39,163 bases of DNA, taken from contig NZ_RAVZ01000044.1 of NCBI RefSeq assembly GCF_003611635.1, positions 1 through 39,163 on the forward strand. Direction: 5' to 3'. Each line of letters opens with the position of its first letter. The first letter of the stretch is position 1. A program made the translations under genes and the position numbers. Below are positions 4,022 to 11,743 of the stretch, piece by piece. Under the pieces are notes generated by a model. It searched no databases. It saw only the letters and a list, made by a program, of their open reading frames with translations, and was not told the DNA's origin. This DNA comes from Corallococcus terminator. GTDB taxonomy: Bacteria > Myxococcota > Myxococcia > Myxococcales > Myxococcaceae.

Positions 4022-4306
4022 GGCGCGGGGAGTATAGCGGGGCCCCGGGGTCCCCAGAACCCCGGTGGTCCCTGCTGCCCTGCCCGCTGGCCGGGCCGGG
4101 GCCGGGTCCCTGGGAACCGGGCACGGGAGAAATCACGTACGCAGGGTCCGGATTGTCACTGCAAGTGCTTGCGGTGTGGAGGTCAAATTTGGCATGCACC
4201 GAAATGAAAGGGCATTCCTTGCGTCAAGTACCTGACAAAAGATAGAGAATGACCATTCCCGCGTTTCGCCACCGGGAGTGGGGTTTCTTGCAAGAGGGAG
4301 GGGCGA
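4022..4306. other. Divergent intergenic region, 285 bp
   Basis: The left part is GC-rich and includes the membrane-protein promoter. The right part (from ~4130) is distinctly richer in A+T than its surroundings and probably holds the promoter of the lipoprotein/RHS cassette. TTGCGT...GATAGA around 4218-4248 is the best weak candidate. No gene or RNA was recognised. Confidence 0.4.
4031..4059 (-). promoter_or_regulatory. Candidate promoter for the polytopic membrane protein
   Basis: On the minus strand, a -10 TATACT (4031-4036) sits 17 nt from a weak -35 TTCTGG (4054-4059). The predicted start of transcription is within about 3 nt of the ATG at 4021. Confidence 0.45.
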
Positions 4307-4687
4307 TTGTTTTTCCGGTCCTGGGTATGGGGTGTGTTGGTGGCAGGGGGCCTGCTGGTGGCCTGCAACGAGGCACCACCTCCCGTGCAAGCCGAGGTCG
4401 CGGCGTCCCCTGAGAAGGTCTTCGGCGAGCACCGGCAATCGCAAGCGGTCGCGGCCACGAAGGAAGTGGGTGAGGACTGCGCTGCGGGGGGCGCGTCCGC
4501 CTGCCGCTCCAATCTCTGCCTTCACACCCAGCCAGCGCCCGGATTGGGGCTGATCTGCTCCAGGCCCTGTCAGGTGGAGGGCAACTGCCCCGCTGGCTGG
4601 CGATGCGCCTCGGTTCATCCGAACGCAGGGGCTTCGTTCTGCGTTCCGCCTCAGGGCTGGTCCGCGCATCCTGCGGCCGAGCGATAG
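4307..4687 (+). CDS. Cys-rich lipoprotein, first gene of the RHS cassette
   Basis: A TTG start at 4307 is chosen because it gives a complete lipoprotein signal peptide (hydrophobic core ending in LLVAC, lipobox) and has a strong GAGGGAGGGG just upstream. After the lipidated Cys comes a low-complexity linker. Then follows a module of eight Cys (ECGxx-like spacing: DC...AC...LC...IC...PC...NC...RC...FC) of the kind common in secreted myxobacterial lipoproteins, probably four disulfides. It ends 6 nt before the TolB-like gene, so the two are likely co-transcribed. The function is unknown; an envelope accessory to the downstream RHS protein is an inference from position. Confidence 0.75.
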   Translation: MFFRSWVWGVLVAGGLLVACNEAPPPVQAEVAASPEKVFGEHRQSQAVAATKEVGEDCAAGGASACRSNLCLHTQPAPGLGLICSRPCQVEGNCPAGWRCASVHPNAGASFCVPPQGWSAHPAAER

Positions 4688-4693
4688 GACTTC

Positions 4694-5551
4694 ATGTTCG
4701 CCCACATCCTGATGCTTCTCCTGGTGGCTGCGCCCCCAGCAGTCCCCGGTGTGTCTTCACCCCGCTATCTGGTCTTTGGCAGGGGAGGGGACTGGGTGGC
4801 CTTGGAGGTCGCCACCGGCAAGCCCGAGCGCATTCGCGTTCCGTCTTCCTCCGGGGCCAGGACCCTCGCGCTTTCCCCGGACGGCCAGCATGTCGTCTTC
4901 ACCACGTACGAGGAAGGGGCGCTAAACGACCTGATGTACCGGTGGGATTGGAGGACGAAGGCCGCCCCGGTACGCATCGGGAATGAGCGGGGGTTCCATG
5001 CCGACCCCGCCATCAGTCCTGATGGGCAGTGGGTCTACTTCGCGCACCACCCGCGCAAAGGTGGGCCGCCGGGACAGCATGAGGAGCGGGCGAATGCGCA
5101 GTTGTACCGGGTGAGGATGGACGGCACCCAGCTCACGGCGCTCACGGATGAGCCTGGCTGTCACCTGCGCCCCTCCTTCCGGCCGGATGGGGAGCTTGTC
5201 TACGTCCACACGACGTGCAGTGCGACCACGAAGACCCTGCACTTGATGCGCGAAGGGCAGCCCGCATCCGGGCCCCTGGTGTCTGGCAACCTGAACGAGC
5301 CGTCCTTCGCCCCTGATGGCCGGCGGTTGGTCTTCGTCGAGCGCGAGGATGCGGACGCGGTCCTGAAGGAATGGATTACCGCAGGGCGTCCTCCCAAGAC
5401 CCTCCACCGGTTTCGCTTGTCGGACAGTTCTAATGCGCGGGTGCAGTACGGAGCCACGGCCCGCGAACTCTATTTCCAGGACGACGATGCCGTCATGCGG
5501 CTCGTGGGTCCGAAAGTCACCCGACTCTTCTTCTTTGCGAGCGTCCCATGA
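4694..5551 (+). CDS. TolB-like/PD40 beta-propeller protein
   Basis: A 285-residue protein with an N-terminal hydrophobic signal segment (MFAHILMLLLVAAPPAVPG). At least four PD40/WD40-like blades follow, each with the x-SPDG- or x-PDG- turn and a following V-(V/F/Y)-F strand: LALSPDGQHVVF, PAISPDGQWVYF, PSFRPDGELVYV and PSFAPDGRRLVF. It is shorter than full TolB and lacks its N-terminal domain. The stop overlaps the RHS start (ATGA at 5548-5551), which points to translational coupling. It is predicted to be a periplasmic or surface scaffold. Its partnership with the RHS protein is inferred only from gene order. Confidence 0.8.
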   Translation: MFAHILMLLLVAAPPAVPGVSSPRYLVFGRGGDWVALEVATGKPERIRVPSSSGARTLALSPDGQHVVFTTYEEGALNDLMYRWDWRTKAAPVRIGNERGFHADPAISPDGQWVYFAHHPRKGGPPGQHEERANAQLYRVRMDGTQLTALTDEPGCHLRPSFRPDGELVYVHTTCSATTKTLHLMREGQPASGPLVSGNLNEPSFAPDGRRLVFVEREDADAVLKEWITAGRPPKTLHRFRLSDSSNARVQYGATARELYFQDDDAVMRLVGPKVTRLFFFASVP

Positions 5552-8500
5552 GAGCTCTGATTCGACTCACGCTGTTGCTGGCGATGGCGGGGGCCACTTC
5601 GGCCCACGCCCAGTTCTGCCCGGCCAACGTCATTCCCCGGTGTGACAGCCCTCAGGGCAATCCCAATGCATCGGGGCCTGCTGTTCCCAAGGCGCCGGGA
5701 GGGCCGGGCTTCTTTGGCGACCCGGTCAGTGTCGCGGATGGTTACAACTACCTTCGCGAAGTGGACTTCGAACTGCCCCTGAGCCAGGGCAGTCTTCCCT
5801 TCATCCGGATGTATACGACGAAGGCTGGCTCGTATCTCTACGGAGGGACGTCGGGCCTTGAGAGCTTCCTCCCTGGCTCCTTTGGCGCGCCGGACGCTGG
5901 CAGACCTCATAACTACATGGGCCGCCCATTCGGTTCGCACCGCACGAATCAATCCAGTCTCAACTGGTGGCATAACTTCTACAGCGCGGTGTTGATGTCC
6001 TCGGCAACTGCTACCGAGGCTGTGATTCGCGACGTCGATGGGCACCTGAATTCGATGACGTTGAGTACGAAGCCCGCGCCTTCGGGTGCGTGGTATGTCA
6101 ATCACAATAATGAGGGCAATCGGGATAGGCTCTGGCGCGATACCGCCCCGGATGGGGGTTGGCCTGAACAGTTTGTCTTCTATCGTGAGGGCAGCGGGCG
6201 GTATGTCTATGACGCTGTCTATGTCCAGCCCAGGACGAATCAGCCGCGTCACTACTTCCTGAGTCGTATCGAGGACTCAGAATATGCCCCTGCGGGAACC
6301 TCCGAGGTTCCTCGCGCGGTATTGGAGTATGCGTTGCCGTCCACGGACGGAGGGACCCTGGCGGATCCGGATTGTTTCACGGGCGCTGCCGGGACAGAGC
6401 CAGGTGTGCCCTACCTCAAGACCATCACGACCCGGGATGGCGCGAAGGTTCACTTCTACTACCGACAGGTCCTGGGGACATTCACGGGGAAATTCGAGTG
6501 CGTCCTGGATCACATCTCCCTGGAGGACTCTTCAGATGGAGGTGTTTCGGAGAAGGTCCTGGTCGAATACTCCTATATTTCGAACAAGAATGAACTCTCC
6601 GAGGTGAAGTATCCCCAGACAGGAGGGGGGCGGAAATACGTTTATACCTATGCCTCGCCCATTGCGACCTACGACGTCTATGAGAATGGCGTCCTGAAGG
6701 CAAAGCACACCTGGGCCAGCAGTGAGCTGGACGCATTGCGTGACGAAGCCGAGGGGCGTGATTATGCCATCTCACTCGTGCCCGATCTCGCCGCGGAGCG
6801 GGACGTGTGCACCGCCTCCATTGGTTCTGGAAATCGGACCCGTGAGTTCGCGGACTCAAAGGTAGGTCTGGGGACGGGCGCGACGGGAACGAGCACCTTC
6901 ACGTCGCGGTTCATCTCAGCGCCCGCCTACTATTCGGCCCAGACGTGGCGGCTCCACACGGTGAAGGAGCGGTGCGATGGTACCTCCTGTCCGGGTGTTG
7001 TTCCTGGCACGGAGCGCTGGGAATACCAATGCGGTCCTTACGACAACACCGCACTGCCGGCCATGCCCAGGGCGCACAAGGACCTTCGTGATAGCTGGAC
7101 GCTCTACAATCACGTCAACCCTGATGCAGGTGTCGCGGAAGCACAGGGCGTGCCTCTGCGGCACGTCAAGGAACTCACCCAGGTCACCGAAGGGGCCAGT
7201 GCGCTGGCGGGGACAGGGGGCATGGCGGAGCTTCGTTACGCCTACACCTACGGTGGACCCGGACGCTCGCTGCGCGCCTTCGAGCAATTGCTCGAACGCG
7301 AAGAAGTGGCCAGCGTGCTGGCACCCTCGGGGACGGCGGATCCCAAGGCGCGCACGCAATTCGTCTATGATTCCGTGACGAACCGGCTGAATGCGACCTT
7401 CAGGACCGGCTGGACGCAGGTGCGAGACTCGTCTGGCGCTTGGCAGGTGGAGAAGCGTCGCGTGGCGCTGTTCAACTTCCGTGCGAATCAGTGCGGCGGC
7501 GTGGGGCCCGAGGACTCCCAGGGCCGCGTGTTGGAAGTGCATGGGCCGTGTCTGGTCGACGCGACCGCTGCGGATGTTTCAACGATTACGGACTGCCCGT
7601 CCACGACGCCGTTCCCGGTGACGAAGTACGAGTACTGGCCCCGGACGGATGTGGAGAACCACCGGAACAGGCTCAAGAAGGAGTCGGTGTTCCCGGGGGG
7701 CTGCGGCGGGAGCACGTCGCTGGACACGCACTACCTGGAGTACGACGTCTTCGGCAACGCCACCCGGATCCAAGACTCCAACGGGGGGATTATCACGCGA
7801 GAGTTCAACCAGGACCTGCTCTCGAAGCAGAGCGTGGTGGATGGCGTGACGACCACCACGACGGAACTGACGTACGACCAGGGGCGGATCAAGGCGATCA
7901 AGCATCCCCAGGGCAACTACGACGTCTTCTGCTACCGGACGGGAACGACCTCGGGATGCTCGGGCGGGACGCTCACGAAGCTGCTTCAGTGGAAGGCGAC
8001 CGCCGCGGATGCCACGGGTTCATCCTGGTCGGAGCGGGTGGATTACGCCTACTGGCCGGATGAGACGGTCAAGTCGGAGACGTTCCTTTCCTGGACGGGA
8101 AGCACTGGCCAGACGCGCAGGGTGAAGACCTATGCAGTGGACGCCCGACGGCATCCCACCTTCGAGGGATTGGGCCCTTCTCCATCGCCTGTCCAGACGG
8201 CCCGGGTGTTCGATGGCAATGGCAACCTGACGGGCCTGGGATTCCCCTCCAATGCGCCGCCGGCCGTCTGCGGCGGGGTGAATCCGGATGGCTCACCGAC
8301 TTCGACCCTCTGCACCGCCATGGGATATGACCGGCTGGATCGGTTGACCAAGGTCGATGAGTTCCCGACGTCCGGGAGCAACCAGCGCACGTGCTTCACG
8401 CACGACGTGCAGAACAACGTCACCTCGGTGCGGTCCGGGTGCGCCGTGGCGACTGGTTCGAATGATTGCTCGACGTGCAGTGCCTCGGTTCCGGCCTCCA

Positions 8501-11241
8501 CGTACGCCTATGACGACTTCGGCAATCTGGTGACGGTGGCCCTGCCGCACACCAGCGATGGTGCCGGGGCTGCGGGTGTCACCCGCTATGCCTATGACGC
8601 CCGGGGGGCGGTGACGCTCAAGGAGACGCCGGAGATGCGGGCGACCTGGGAGTGGATCACCCATGAGTACGACCTGCTGGGCCGGCTCCTTCGCTCCGTG
8701 CGGCACTTCACCACGCCGTACGCGGGGGCGGAGAACCTGTTTGCCCTGTCATATGACGTGAATGATTCCGGCGATGCGACGAGCGTGCCTCCGATGAGCT
8801 GCCCGCAGCCCGCGAAGACGGCGGGACGGCTGCGCTACCGCCACGATTCATTCGGGCGCACCTGGTACCAGTACGACGCCTTCGGCCGGGTGGCGGGGGA
8901 GATCCGGCTGCGCGAGGGAGAGACGAGCTGCTCGGCGGGGAACGTGAACCACCACCCGCACACGTTCTACACGTACACGGCCAACGGCAATGTCCAGACG
9001 GTGACGTACCCGCACGGGCGCGTCGTGACCTATGTCTATGGAACGGGGGCGAAGCTGGACCGGACCCAGGCTATTGACGTGCGGCTCTTCGGCAGTTCCG
9101 GGTACACGGATACGCGCGTCATCGAAGGGATTGTCTGGGAACCGTTTGGCGGCCTGCGTGGCTACCAGATGAACCACCCGAGTACCTCGAACAGCAGCGC
9201 CATGGAGTTCATGCTGGGGGACAACACGTCGGTGGCGCCTTCCGCGTGCCCGACGTCGCCGCCGAACCTCTCGTCGGGAGACATGACGGGACGCCTGCGG
9301 TCGGTGCGGGTGTCATCCGGGTCGTTCACCCCGGGGGCTGGGAACGGGGATATCTACCAGCGTGGGTATACGTGGACGGGGGACCAGGTCGCTCGGCTGG
9401 ACACGTGTCTCCTGGGGGCGACGACGCCCCGGACGGAGACTTACGCGTATGACCGCGCGCTGCGCCTGGTAGGGGCAGGGCGGCCGGCGGGCAACTTCGC
9501 CGCGACCGGCGGCGCGTTCGAGTCGCGGAACTACCAGTATGACGGCCGTGGCAACCGGACCCAATTGGAGGAGGACGGGTTCATCTACGACCTGACCTCC
9601 GGGACGGCCCCTGCGGTGGACCGGTTGACGGGGTGGGGCTCCTCCGTTTCGGGCAGCCTGCTGAAGTACTCCCTGTCACACGACGTGGACGGCCGTGTGA
9701 CGCAGAAGCGTTGGGCCGCGACCATGTCCGGTGGGCCTGTCTATGCGCTGGGCTTCGAGTATGGACAGACGGTGGGCGTGGCCACGGAGACCGTGTTCCG
9801 CGCAGTCAATGTCAATGGCACCTACTACAACTACTTCTACGATGCGTTGGGCCGGCGCCGGCTGAAGTCGAACCCTTATGGGACAACGGATGAGTTCTTC
9901 CACTCGCCGTCGAACCGGTTGCTGACGGACCGGGGCAATGATGGATTGAGCACGCCCATTGGTCACTTCACCTTGGACGACTACGTGTGGCTGGCGGGGC
10001 GTCCGGTGGCGCTCGTTCGTGGGAAGTTCAGCGCGGCCTGGGCGCGGCAGGCGGACAGTACGGGGGACTGCTCCCGTGACGGCGAGTCGGTGGCGTGCGG
10101 TGTGTACTTCCCGGTGACGGACCACATCGGAAAGCCGGTGGTCATGCTGGACGGCTCTCGGCGGGTGACTGGTGCTGCGGACACCGAGCCCTTCGGGCAC
10201 GTCAACCGGGTAAGCTACCACGCGGAGACGGCGCATCCGTACGCGCACAGTACGACCACCACACTGGCGTCTTTCTCGCAACCGAAAGAGACCTCGTCCG
10301 TCCAGATACGTGTGCGTGCCCGCTACCACGTGGTGGATACGGAGCCGGGCGCGGACTTCGTTCGCTTGGTGGATCCGGATACCAGTAGTGTCCTTGACAG
10401 TCAGTCGGGTGAGCGCCGGGGGCGGGTAACCACGCCTTGGGTAGTGCCCTCCAACGGAAACGTATCACCGCTTTTTGTCTCCGATTCCGGTGGCCTGACA
10501 GGGTTCCAGGGCGTCGCCGTCGAAGGTTATGATTACCAGCGATATCAAACTGGAGCCCAGGCATTCTGGATTCCTCTCAGATTCCCGGGGCAGTACCATG
10601 ATGCCGAGACGGATCTGTTTGAGAACTGGAATCGCTACTATGACCCTGGCGTGGGGCGATACCTGCAGCCGGAGCCAATGTTGCAGCACCCACGTACTTC
10701 TCTTGTTGCAGCGCAATGGGGATACTTTTTTTCGACATACTCTTATGCGCTGAATAATCCGGTCGGTTTGACTGATTCGACGGGAAGTATCCCAGATTCA
10801 ATCAGGCTGAAGATGCTTGCCGCGCTTGCGGCGGGCGATATTGATGGCGCCATTGCTGCCTACCTTGCATGGAAGGGTGTTGCAGATGCCCCCAGGTGGT
10901 TGACTGCTTTTCAGGGGGCATTTACAACGGCAAATCAGGCTGCTGGTCGATGCTATGCGGCCGCTGATGCTATTTTTAAAGGATTTCAACGGCTGGGTCA
11001 GAAGCCTGATCTTGCGATTTTGCGACCTGCCGATGGTTCTGGTATTATTGGGATAGAGAAAATTCCTGGCGTGGCGAGTTCGACAGTTCAGATTGCGGAC
11101 AATGGGGAGCATGTTGTGGTTGTTATCGGGCAGCGCGTTTATGACGCCTTTACGGGGCCGCAAGGACAGCTTGTTGCTGATTATCTCAAGCGGATATTTA
11201 CCGGATCTGGGGCGCCGCTGAGTGGATTCGGCGGCCCCTGA
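5548..11241 (+). CDS. Secreted RHS/YD-repeat polymorphic toxin with papain-like C-terminal tip
   Basis: A 1897-residue RHS protein. It has a signal peptide (cleavage likely after AHA) and then a DUF6531-like entry region (GDPVSVADGYNYL, ~55-70). Many YD repeats follow (for example YDxFGN, YDxLGR, YDxRGN, YDALGRRRLKS). The RHS core boundary comes near residue 1683-1750 (HDAETDLFENWNRYYDP, GRYLQPEP, YALNNPVGLTDSTG). The last ~150 residues are a variable tip with C1802, H1855 (NGEHVVVV) and D1866 (RVYDAFTG), the order and spacing expected of papain-like toxin domains (cysteine protease or deamidase). The tip DNA is far poorer in G+C than the rest. No PAAR or VgrG domain is present; the signal peptide argues for Sec export. 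The RHS call is firm; the toxin class is an inference. Confidence 0.9.
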   Translation: MRALIRLTLLLAMAGATSAHAQFCPANVIPRCDSPQGNPNASGPAVPKAPGGPGFFGDPVSVADGYNYLREVDFELPLSQGSLPFIRMYTTKAGSYLYGGTSGLESFLPGSFGAPDAGRPHNYMGRPFGSHRTNQSSLNWWHNFYSAVLMSSATATEAVIRDVDGHLNSMTLSTKPAPSGAWYVNHNNEGNRDRLWRDTAPDGGWPEQFVFYREGSGRYVYDAVYVQPRTNQPRHYFLSRIEDSEYAPAGTSEVPRAVLEYALPSTDGGTLADPDCFTGAAGTEPGVPYLKTITTRDGAKVHFYYRQVLGTFTGKFECVLDHISLEDSSDGGVSEKVLVEYSYISNKNELSEVKYPQTGGGRKYVYTYASPIATYDVYENGVLKAKHTWASSELDALRDEAEGRDYAISLVPDLAAERDVCTASIGSGNRTREFADSKVGLGTGATGTSTFTSRFISAPAYYSAQTWRLHTVKERCDGTSCPGVVPGTERWEYQCGPYDNTALPAMPRAHKDLRDSWTLYNHVNPDAGVAEAQGVPLRHVKELTQVTEGASALAGTGGMAELRYAYTYGGPGRSLRAFEQLLEREEVASVLAPSGTADPKARTQFVYDSVTNRLNATFRTGWTQVRDSSGAWQVEKRRVALFNFRANQCGGVGPEDSQGRVLEVHGPCLVDATAADVSTITDCPSTTPFPVTKYEYWPRTDVENHRNRLKKESVFPGGCGGSTSLDTHYLEYDVFGNATRIQDSNGGIITREFNQDLLSKQSVVDGVTTTTTELTYDQGRIKAIKHPQGNYDVFCYRTGTTSGCSGGTLTKLLQWKATAADATGSSWSERVDYAYWPDETVKSETFLSWTGSTGQTRRVKTYAVDARRHPTFEGLGPSPSPVQTARVFDGNGNLTGLGFPSNAPPAVCGGVNPDGSPTSTLCTAMGYDRLDRLTKVDEFPTSGSNQRTCFTHDVQNNVTSVRSGCAVATGSNDCSTCSASVPASTYAYDDFGNLVTVALPHTSDGAGAAGVTRYAYDARGAVTLKETPEMRATWEWITHEYDLLGRLLRSVRHFTTPYAGAENLFALSYDVNDSGDATSVPPMSCPQPAKTAGRLRYRHDSFGRTWYQYDAFGRVAGEIRLREGETSCSAGNVNHHPHTFYTYTANGNVQTVTYPHGRVVTYVYGTGAKLDRTQAIDVRLFGSSGYTDTRVIEGIVWEPFGGLRGYQMNHPSTSNSSAMEFMLGDNTSVAPSACPTSPPNLSSGDMTGRLRSVRVSSGSFTPGAGNGDIYQRGYTWTGDQVARLDTCLLGATTPRTETYAYDRALRLVGAGRPAGNFAATGGAFESRNYQYDGRGNRTQLEEDGFIYDLTSGTAPAVDRLTGWGSSVSGSLLKYSLSHDVDGRVTQKRWAATMSGGPVYALGFEYGQTVGVATETVFRAVNVNGTYYNYFYDALGRRRLKSNPYGTTDEFFHSPSNRLLTDRGNDGLSTPIGHFTLDDYVWLAGRPVALVRGKFSAAWARQADSTGDCSRDGESVACGVYFPVTDHIGKPVVMLDGSRRVTGAADTEPFGHVNRVSYHAETAHPYAHSTTTTLASFSQPKETSSVQIRVRARYHVVDTEPGADFVRLVDPDTSSVLDSQSGERRGRVTTPWVVPSNGNVSPLFVSDSGGLTGFQGVAVEGYDYQRYQTGAQAFWIPLRFPGQYHDAETDLFENWNRYYDPGVGRYLQPEPMLQHPRTSLVAAQWGYFFSTYSYALNNPVGLTDSTGSIPDSIRLKMLAALAAGDIDGAIAAYLAWKGVADAPRWLTAFQGAFTTANQAAGRCYAAADAIFKGFQRLGQKPDLAILRPADGSGIIGIEKIPGVASSTVQIADNGEHVVVVIGQRVYDAFTGPQGQLVADYLKRIFTGSGAPLSGFGGP

Positions 11242-11243
11242 TT

Positions 11244-11567
11244 ATGGGAAAATCAGGCGAACTTTCTGTGATGGGTGTTTTGGTGCTGATGTGGGAGGGA
11301 CGGAATCGTCCTGGGTTTCTGCCTTTTATCGGTCAGCCCGATGTGATGAAGCTTTGGGGATTTGTTCTGGGCTTGGAGACGGCGGCCTTGCTCATGGGAG
11401 AGCCCGATGCTGGTTATGTGCGGTTTCGGGACTGGTTGCGGGATGTGAAGGGCGAGTTTCCGCCCGAAGGCTGGCATGCGCGATATTTGAACGATGCCGA
11501 GGGCGACCATTCGGCTGCATGCCTTCGGTACCTTGATCGGGTAGCGGAGTTCCTTGGCAGAGCTTGA
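11244..11567 (+). CDS. Putative immunity protein for the RHS tip
   Basis: A 107-residue acidic, probably cytosolic protein whose ATG lies 2 nt after the RHS stop codon, so translation is likely coupled. It has no signal peptide or membrane segment. Its base composition is low in G+C like the adjacent toxin tip, which suggests the two travelled together. Recognisable features are an aromatic- and acid-rich C-terminal half (FRDWLRDVKGEFPPEGWHA, then DHSAACLRYLDRVAEFL). I do not recognise an immunity family. The assignment rests on position, size and composition. Confidence 0.65.
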   Translation: MGKSGELSVMGVLVLMWEGRNRPGFLPFIGQPDVMKLWGFVLGLETAALLMGEPDAGYVRFRDWLRDVKGEFPPEGWHARYLNDAEGDHSAACLRYLDRVAEFLGRA

Positions 11568-11654
11568 ATCTCAGGGGGCCTGCTCTCCAGGGCCGGCTCC
11601 CTCCACAGCTTGACTCCCGGTGTGGAGGCCTTCACCTCTGGAACCAAGTCGAGG

Positions 11655-11668
11655 GGTGTTGCAACACC
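11655..11668. promoter_or_regulatory. Perfect 14-bp palindrome upstream of the amidohydrolase gene
   Basis: GGTGTTGCAACACC is its own reverse complement and lies ~75 bp upstream of the amidohydrolase start. It has the symmetry of a dimeric repressor operator; no regulator is identified. Confidence 0.35.
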
Positions 11669-11743
11669 GTCCCAGCGCCGCCCGGGCCTACTCCCCAGGA
11701 GCGACAGGGTTCTTCCCCGACCCGGCCCCGTGCTAAAACGGGG

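Follow-up and report, generated by a model that had tools for sequence, protein, structure and literature searches.

A myxobacterial RHS toxin cassette with a probable lipoprotein partner and a tip of the papain-like Tox-PL-2 group

In Neisseria, secretion of the toxin MafB is described as abrogated without MafA, an outer membrane lipoprotein, and one class of MafB requires its cognate MafA (PMC7738311). In Myxococcus xanthus, RHS toxins that carry signal peptides are reported to antagonize even when both outer membrane exchange (OME) and the type VI secretion system (T6SS) are inactivated (PMC10433427). For the Tox-PL-2 domain, the defining paper names the residues C, NxxH and DN, together with RHS as carrier and Imm73 as partner (PMC3482391). 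Here we describe a four-gene RHS toxin cassette of Corallococcus terminator and compare it with these systems. The cassette lies in a stretch of 39,163 nucleotides, called the window below (contig NZ_RAVZ01000044.1, positions 1 to 39,163 of the forward strand; assembly GCF_003611635.1), and its source genome comprises 10.35 Mb across 863 contigs. The first-pass annotation of the locus held that a Sec-dependent RHS protein would represent a delivery arrangement different from that of type VI effectors. Such an arrangement is not itself new, as Sec-type, T6SS-independent RHS toxins of myxobacteria are already known (PMC10433427). What is new is the lipoprotein partner: no account of a lipoprotein/RHS pairing was found in the open-licence literature searched.

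We interpret the locus, at a probability of about 0.72, as a myxobacterial polymorphic-toxin cassette in which an RHS protein with an exchangeable Tox-PL-2 tip is accompanied by an immunity gene, a dedicated lipoprotein partner and an optional propeller. The four open reading frames (ORFs) run in one direction at 4307-11567 on the + strand, with 6, -4 and 2 nt between neighbors. The tight packing, signal peptide, RHS core boundary and tip with C1802, H1855 and D1866 that had been read from the letters alone were all borne out by the coordinates, by the profile TIGR03696 and by the sequence. The features are as follows.

4307 to 4687, + strand: lipoprotein, 126 amino acids, TTG start; lipobox LVAC (Cys20), Asn at +2, a linker with VFGEHR and an eight-cysteine domain
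4694 to 5551, + strand: beta-propeller with PD40 repeats, an optional partner, 285 amino acids; the TolB model covers the C-terminal propeller part only
5548 to 11241, + strand: polymorphic toxin of RHS type that carries a signal peptide, 1897 amino acids
5548 to 5610, + strand: signal peptide of the RHS protein, residues 1-21, assigned by eye, ending in AHA
5611 to 10785, + strand: RHS/YD core, residues 22-1746, ending in NNPVGLTDSTG, with RHS_repeat and TIGR03696 matches
10786 to 11238, + strand: toxin tip, 151 amino acids, assigned to the papain-like Tox-PL-2 group; C1802, H1855, D1866
11244 to 11567, + strand: putative immunity protein, 107 amino acids, without a signal peptide by eye
4022 to 11743, no strand: variable segment between two conserved flanking genes, which lie 0.1-0.5 kb apart in 6 of 16 genomes of the genus

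The TTG at window position 4307 is the assigned start of the lipoprotein, and this assignment is tentative. The variable segment, at ~4022-11743, is slightly wider than the 4307-11567 delimited at first.

The association between lipoprotein and RHS protein was surveyed in 145 genomes of the order Myxococcales, window included. With a 501-residue N-terminal stretch of the RHS protein (residues 51-551) as query, we recovered 52 RHS matches in 39 genomes; a lipoprotein match lay no more than 4 kb upstream on the same strand in 51 of them. The sole RHS match without one (G106:C28) runs to the end of its contig, and one of the 51 upstream lipoproteins, in G111, survives as a remnant interrupted by stop codons. 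In that genome (locus L060), two RHS genes with near-identical cores stand in tandem, one after a lipoprotein and the other after a propeller and the stop-containing lipoprotein remnant. Lipoprotein relatives occur in 69 of the 145 genomes, and in an alignment of 49 mature sequences none of the eight cysteines falls below 96% conservation. The count of 51 used 98 of 114 listed lipoprotein matches, 16 weak ones, 13 of them outside the fetched loci, being left out. Adjacency was also counted from the lipoprotein side. Here the tally from the fetched loci stood at 99 ORFs, one counted twice (L080/L087), which leaves 98 distinct ORFs. Among these, 83 precede an RHS gene, nine lie less than 3 kb from a contig end and six do neither, namely one strong relative (L086) and five weak ones (L148, L149, L150, L152 and L154). 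Three RHS loci of other groups in the window's genome (C310, C192 and C843) had no lipoprotein relative in the stretches fetched. The lipoprotein itself matched no toxin family over any Pfam cut-off.

Lipoprotein and RHS distances were correlated across 69 pairs (r = 0.78), and none of 1000 free permutations gave a value as high. When lipoproteins were permuted within genomes, i.e., among paralogues, r was 0.54 ± 0.05 and none of 2000 permutations reached 0.78. Because the within-genome permutation never attains the observed value, these distances indicate that each lipoprotein belongs with its own RHS protein, beyond shared species history. The result bears on the alternative of a lipoprotein that serves as an adhesin at the surface or binds receptors, being encoded beside the toxin and not acting on it. 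Such a role would be in keeping with the other small, cysteine-rich lipoprotein-like ORFs seen by eye, RHS-free, in L224 and L226, where they occupy the site of the cassette, and with the account that MafA initially came to notice as an adhesin that binds glycolipids (PMC4287609). Set against the adjacency in 51 of 52 matches and a pairing above that of the within-genome permutation, we regard it as unlikely.

By its repeats, core boundary and tip diversity, the RHS protein belongs with the polymorphic RHS toxins. Pfam RHS_repeat scored 53.5 bits (cut-off 22), and TIGR03696 (Rhs_assc_core) spans residues 1675-1746 at 53.8 bits (cut-off 32.5); a DUF6531 match fell below its cut-off. All Pfam families in the protein are of RHS type, with no DUF1020 (the Maf toxin domain) and no match at E<=1 to NHL or FN-plug, the features of teneurin-like proteins. 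The boundary motif was located in 51 of 72 RHS relatives, the regular expression for it failing on the other 21, and the tips that follow it are visibly diverse, 48 of them being 100-192 residues long. In the nearest relative (L055, of the same genus), identity to the window protein per 100 residues is 57-76% over residues 1-600 and 85-96% over residues 601-1700; the two tips are 17% identical. GC content at third codon positions is 0.46 in the window tip versus 0.77 in the core. Since a conserved core precedes differing tips among relatives, we class the protein as a polymorphic toxin and conclude from these comparisons that tips are swapped among RHS relatives.

A regular expression for signal peptides was also tried on the relatives and rejected as too loose for a test: 68 of 72 N-termini passed, but the pattern also accepted internal stretches (29 of 72) and shuffled sequences (49 of 72). 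Had the signal peptide of the window protein been misread, the protein could be a type VI effector, since the T6SS often has as its cargo RHS proteins that lack a signal peptide (PMC10433427). This is very improbable: the signal peptide is apparent by eye, Pfam found no PAAR in the RHS protein, and the ten other window ORFs that were scanned hold no PAAR, VgrG or T6SS family, the search having covered the window and not the genome beyond it.

The tip (residues 1747-1897) contains C1802, H1855 and D1866, and its relatives, present in 22 of the 195 genomes that represent the phylum, connect it to a known toxin group. An alignment of 28 tips shows no exception to Cys1802 or His1855, and Asp1866 is conserved in at least 90%. 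The Pfam model Tox-PL-2 (PF15643) matches 20 of these 28 at E<=1, with a best value of 1.2e-7. Of ten tips scanned singly, eight match Tox-PL-2, two of them (L195 and L200) above the cut-off at 26.1 versus 25 bits, and the match spans the Cys in seven of the eight. Searches against PDB sequences gave no match with the tip as a single query and nothing better than E 0.24 with the 28-sequence profile; a scan of genome contigs with the tip alignment returned one locus (L155, from a Myxococcaceae metagenome-assembled genome). Assignment of the tip to the papain-like Tox-PL-2 group is thus supported by way of its relatives, as is the Cys-His-Asp active site first proposed for it, and the relatives' matches to a papain-fold model give no sign of an unrelated fold. 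The enzyme could be papain-like without being a protease, acting instead as a deamidase or transglutaminase. Papain-fold toxins do include transglutaminase-like enzymes (PMC3482391), but the same source describes Tox-PL-2 as a peptidase domain, and Cpe1, another interbacterial toxin of papain-like type but distinct from this one, has GyrB and ParE as its protease substrates (PMC12136450); we consider a non-protease tip rather improbable.

Only four of the 28 aligned tips are RHS tips (the window, L187, L188 and L199). Among the remaining 24, 22 lie within open frames of 187-307 codons and two (L197 and L214) in longer frames. Loci L189-L215 (e.g., L195, L200 and L202) encode small proteins with a Tox-PL-2-like domain, several with signal peptides by eye and with immunity relatives following them, and some genomes hold rows of such proteins (G072:C9 has three tips at 226-229 kb). 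By eye, an ordinary signal peptide is visible at the start of L195, L200, L201, L202, L203 and L206, and a lipobox in L207; with six examples of the former and one of the latter, we abandoned the view of the small tip proteins as lipoproteins of the SitA kind. As most tip relatives are not RHS proteins and six examples carry a signal peptide, the same catalytic domain travels with two kinds of carrier, RHS shells and a small protein that is secreted in at least part of the cases. The tip thus ties RHS toxins to small proteins that have the same catalytic domain, several of them with signal peptides, and the same immunity family behind them.

Downstream of the RHS gene, the 107-residue ORF looks like the immunity partner of the tip. 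In 57 of 65 full-length tip matches, the 900 nt that follow hold the start of a same-strand relative of this ORF, which is missing from the other eight; the 65 were drawn from 75 matches after ten fragments were left out, and the count of 57 is a lower bound, as it used a subset of the immunity matches. This frequency upholds the toxin/immunity pairing suggested at first. Relatives of the ORF occur in 30 of 195 genomes, often as neighboring or double-domain copies, and adjoin the RHS gene at two RHS loci (L061 and L116). A Pfam scan of the 107-residue protein gave zero matches. Because the putative immunity protein has no signal peptide, the target of the toxin is most likely cytoplasmic. Two loci show these genes in altered states. 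At L116:4521-10951 (G079), the RHS gene is in two frames and the tip leaves the frame just past the His, with two differing immunity copies remaining downstream. At L087:8974-12026 (G074), an orphan immunity relative is followed by displaced C-terminal RHS fragments, one with ~150 residues past the core.

The propeller is a real but, judged by its distribution, optional third gene of the cassette. It adjoins 12 of 72 RHS genes, comprising a six-member clade that includes the window (support 100) and scattered others. From the propeller side, ten of 11 matches stand beside an RHS gene and the remaining one, at a contig end, follows a lipoprotein. A single origin of the propeller was considered and is unsupported: the tree requires five changes for the 12 rows, four of them forced by well-supported branches (a quick method was used, and several branches are long). 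PD40 matched at 60.4 bits (Pfam), and TIGR02800 (TolB) scored 57.4 bits against a cut-off of 343, over profile positions 223-406, i.e., the propeller part only. TolB structures head the Foldseek PDB list for the AlphaFold model; this model is weak (predicted local confidence, pLDDT, 57; predicted template modeling score, pTM, 0.64), and the list was counted only as agreement with a propeller fold. The first-pass description of the protein as TolB-like consequently holds for the modeled fold and not for the family, whose cut-off is far from reached. Of the two dedicated partners proposed there, the lipoprotein is tied to RHS in 51 of 52 matches and the propeller stands beside only 12 of 72, so that a lipoprotein-TolB-RHS order is not general in the genomic survey; neither gene is found unlinked from the cassette as a rule.

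Several points weigh against our interpretation of the cassette. Nearest-match concordance between 19 multi-copy genomes is modest (452 of 756, with 352 expected), and it was for this reason that the within-genome permutation was added. Adjacent genes can also be co-inherited as a cassette without physical contact between their products. One strong lipoprotein relative (L086, in G072) has no RHS detected in 11 kb downstream. Of 94 lipoprotein relatives, a strict lipobox script passed 49 and a looser one 89, both scripts being without a control. At 126 amino acids, the lipoprotein is far below the 34 kDa given for MafA (PMC7738311), and with this small size it may anchor rather than translocate. 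The MafA precedent is itself disputed, since in an earlier study deletion of the single mafA gene of N. cinerea is reported to have left MafB secretion unaffected (PMC4287609). As for the tip, the window sequence gave no Tox-PL-2 match at E<=10, and its AlphaFold model, built from two alignment rows, has a pLDDT of 50 and is unusable for a fold search.

Gene content, homology, pairing and swapping are observed, and from them we infer each step of delivery. The RHS protein would cross the inner membrane by its signal peptide. The lipoprotein, located in the outer membrane, would then serve as a dedicated partner that stabilizes the RHS protein, carries it across or displays it at the surface, as MafA is reported to do for MafB. 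Upon contact, the shell would release the tip, which would enter the cytoplasm of a non-immune relative and act there as a cysteine protease or other papain-fold enzyme, kin being protected by the immunity protein. The propeller would be an optional helper, perhaps in periplasmic handling.

The lipoprotein could alternatively be a ticket for OME, binding the RHS protein so that both are passed to kin by TraA/TraB in the manner of SitA toxins. Myxobacteria transfer outer membrane lipoproteins, a route that also serves their SitA toxins, to which SitB is accessory (PMC5562445), and the tracking of each lipoprotein with its own RHS protein would agree with such a role. However, the ability of other M. 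xanthus signal-peptide RHS toxins to antagonize with OME and T6SS inactivated (PMC10433427) makes this quite unlikely. As a dedicated surface partner, by contrast, the lipoprotein is a concrete candidate for how large signal-peptide YD/RHS toxins exit a Gram-negative cell and reach their target. We propose, more tentatively and as a possibility that remains doubtful, that the eight-cysteine lipoprotein is the first member seen of a new class of dedicated outer membrane export and display partners for RHS toxins. Export would then follow a route of two partners, to which the propeller could be added as a periplasmic adaptor, and this would explain the surface arrival of myxobacterial signal-peptide RHS proteins.

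The four genes are not chance ORFs, as their ratios of nonsynonymous to synonymous substitution rates (dN/dS) are low. Against the nearest relative, dN/dS is 0.15 for the lipoprotein, 0.14 for the propeller and 0.13 for the RHS core (dS 0.9-1.1); for the fourth ORF it is 0.15 and 0.10 against two relatives (dS 1.5-2.5, near saturation). Over the six gene pairs computed, values range from 0.08 to 0.15; dS has reached saturation in the tip, and that of the fourth gene is high.

The insertion site of the cassette resembles a hotspot. Each of the 16 genomes searched within the genus contains both flanking genes. These stand 0.1-0.5 kb from each other, leaving an empty site, in G062, G063, G065, G066, G067 and G068; 7.7 kb apart in the window; and 9.8 kb apart in G069, which has the cassette. 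In seven genomes (G057, G058, G059, G060, G061, G070 and G071) they are separated by 1.7-16.8 kb with other DNA between, and in G064 they are on separate contigs. At L226:3978-4391 (G071), the site holds a 79-residue RHS remnant (residues 1517-1595, 81% identical), apparently the scar of a lost cassette. At L223 (G070), it is filled by 16.8 kb in which a long frame resembles RHS and some ORFs look transposase-like by eye. The other small, RHS-free ORFs of L224 and L226 noted above sit at this site as well.

Five described systems resemble the cassette in part. Like SitBAI, it is a myxobacterial cassette in which a toxin and its immunity protein are joined by an exported accessory protein, SitBAI being one of kin discrimination (PMC5562445); in SitBAI, however, the SitA lipoprotein is itself the toxin, whereas the window lipoprotein has no toxin domain by Pfam. 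With Tox-PL-2/Imm73 it shares the Cys, His and Asp residues, an NxxH motif (NGEH in the window tip) and an RHS carrier, and Imm73 is sometimes in tandem, as relatives of the window immunity gene often are (PMC3482391). It differs in having DA in place of DN, and the Asn of NxxH is kept in fewer than 90% of the 28 tips. The bacterial teneurin-like proteins, as described in PMC13018210, likewise combine a YD shell with a variable C-terminal toxin and an immunity gene, are frequent in Myxococcota and lack obvious delivery machinery. They carry an FN-plug and NHL in one chain and have their own signal peptidase II (SPII) signals in Myxococcota, whereas lipoprotein and propeller are separate genes here.

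Closer in delivery are Rhs4 and Rhs5 of M. xanthus, which are large RHS proteins with signal sequences that act in kin discrimination independently of the T6SS and are encoded in variable DNA (PMC10433427). These proteins are ~4000 amino acids long, and their description in that source makes no mention of a lipoprotein partner. The nearest working analogue, although of a different family, is MafA-MafB-MafI of Neisseria, in which the gene for an outer membrane lipoprotein lies just 5' of a signal-peptide polymorphic toxin gene and an immunity gene, in variable islands (PMC7738311, PMC4287609). In these accounts, MafB has DUF1020 and is without RHS-type repeats, and the 34-kDa MafA contrasts with a 126-residue cysteine-rich lipoprotein that may be joined by a propeller here; the likeness of MafA and the window lipoprotein is drawn from their descriptions. 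Should the lipoprotein function in the manner of MafA, toxin secretion with a lipoprotein partner would reach beyond Neisseria to another toxin scaffold, one unrelated to MafB.
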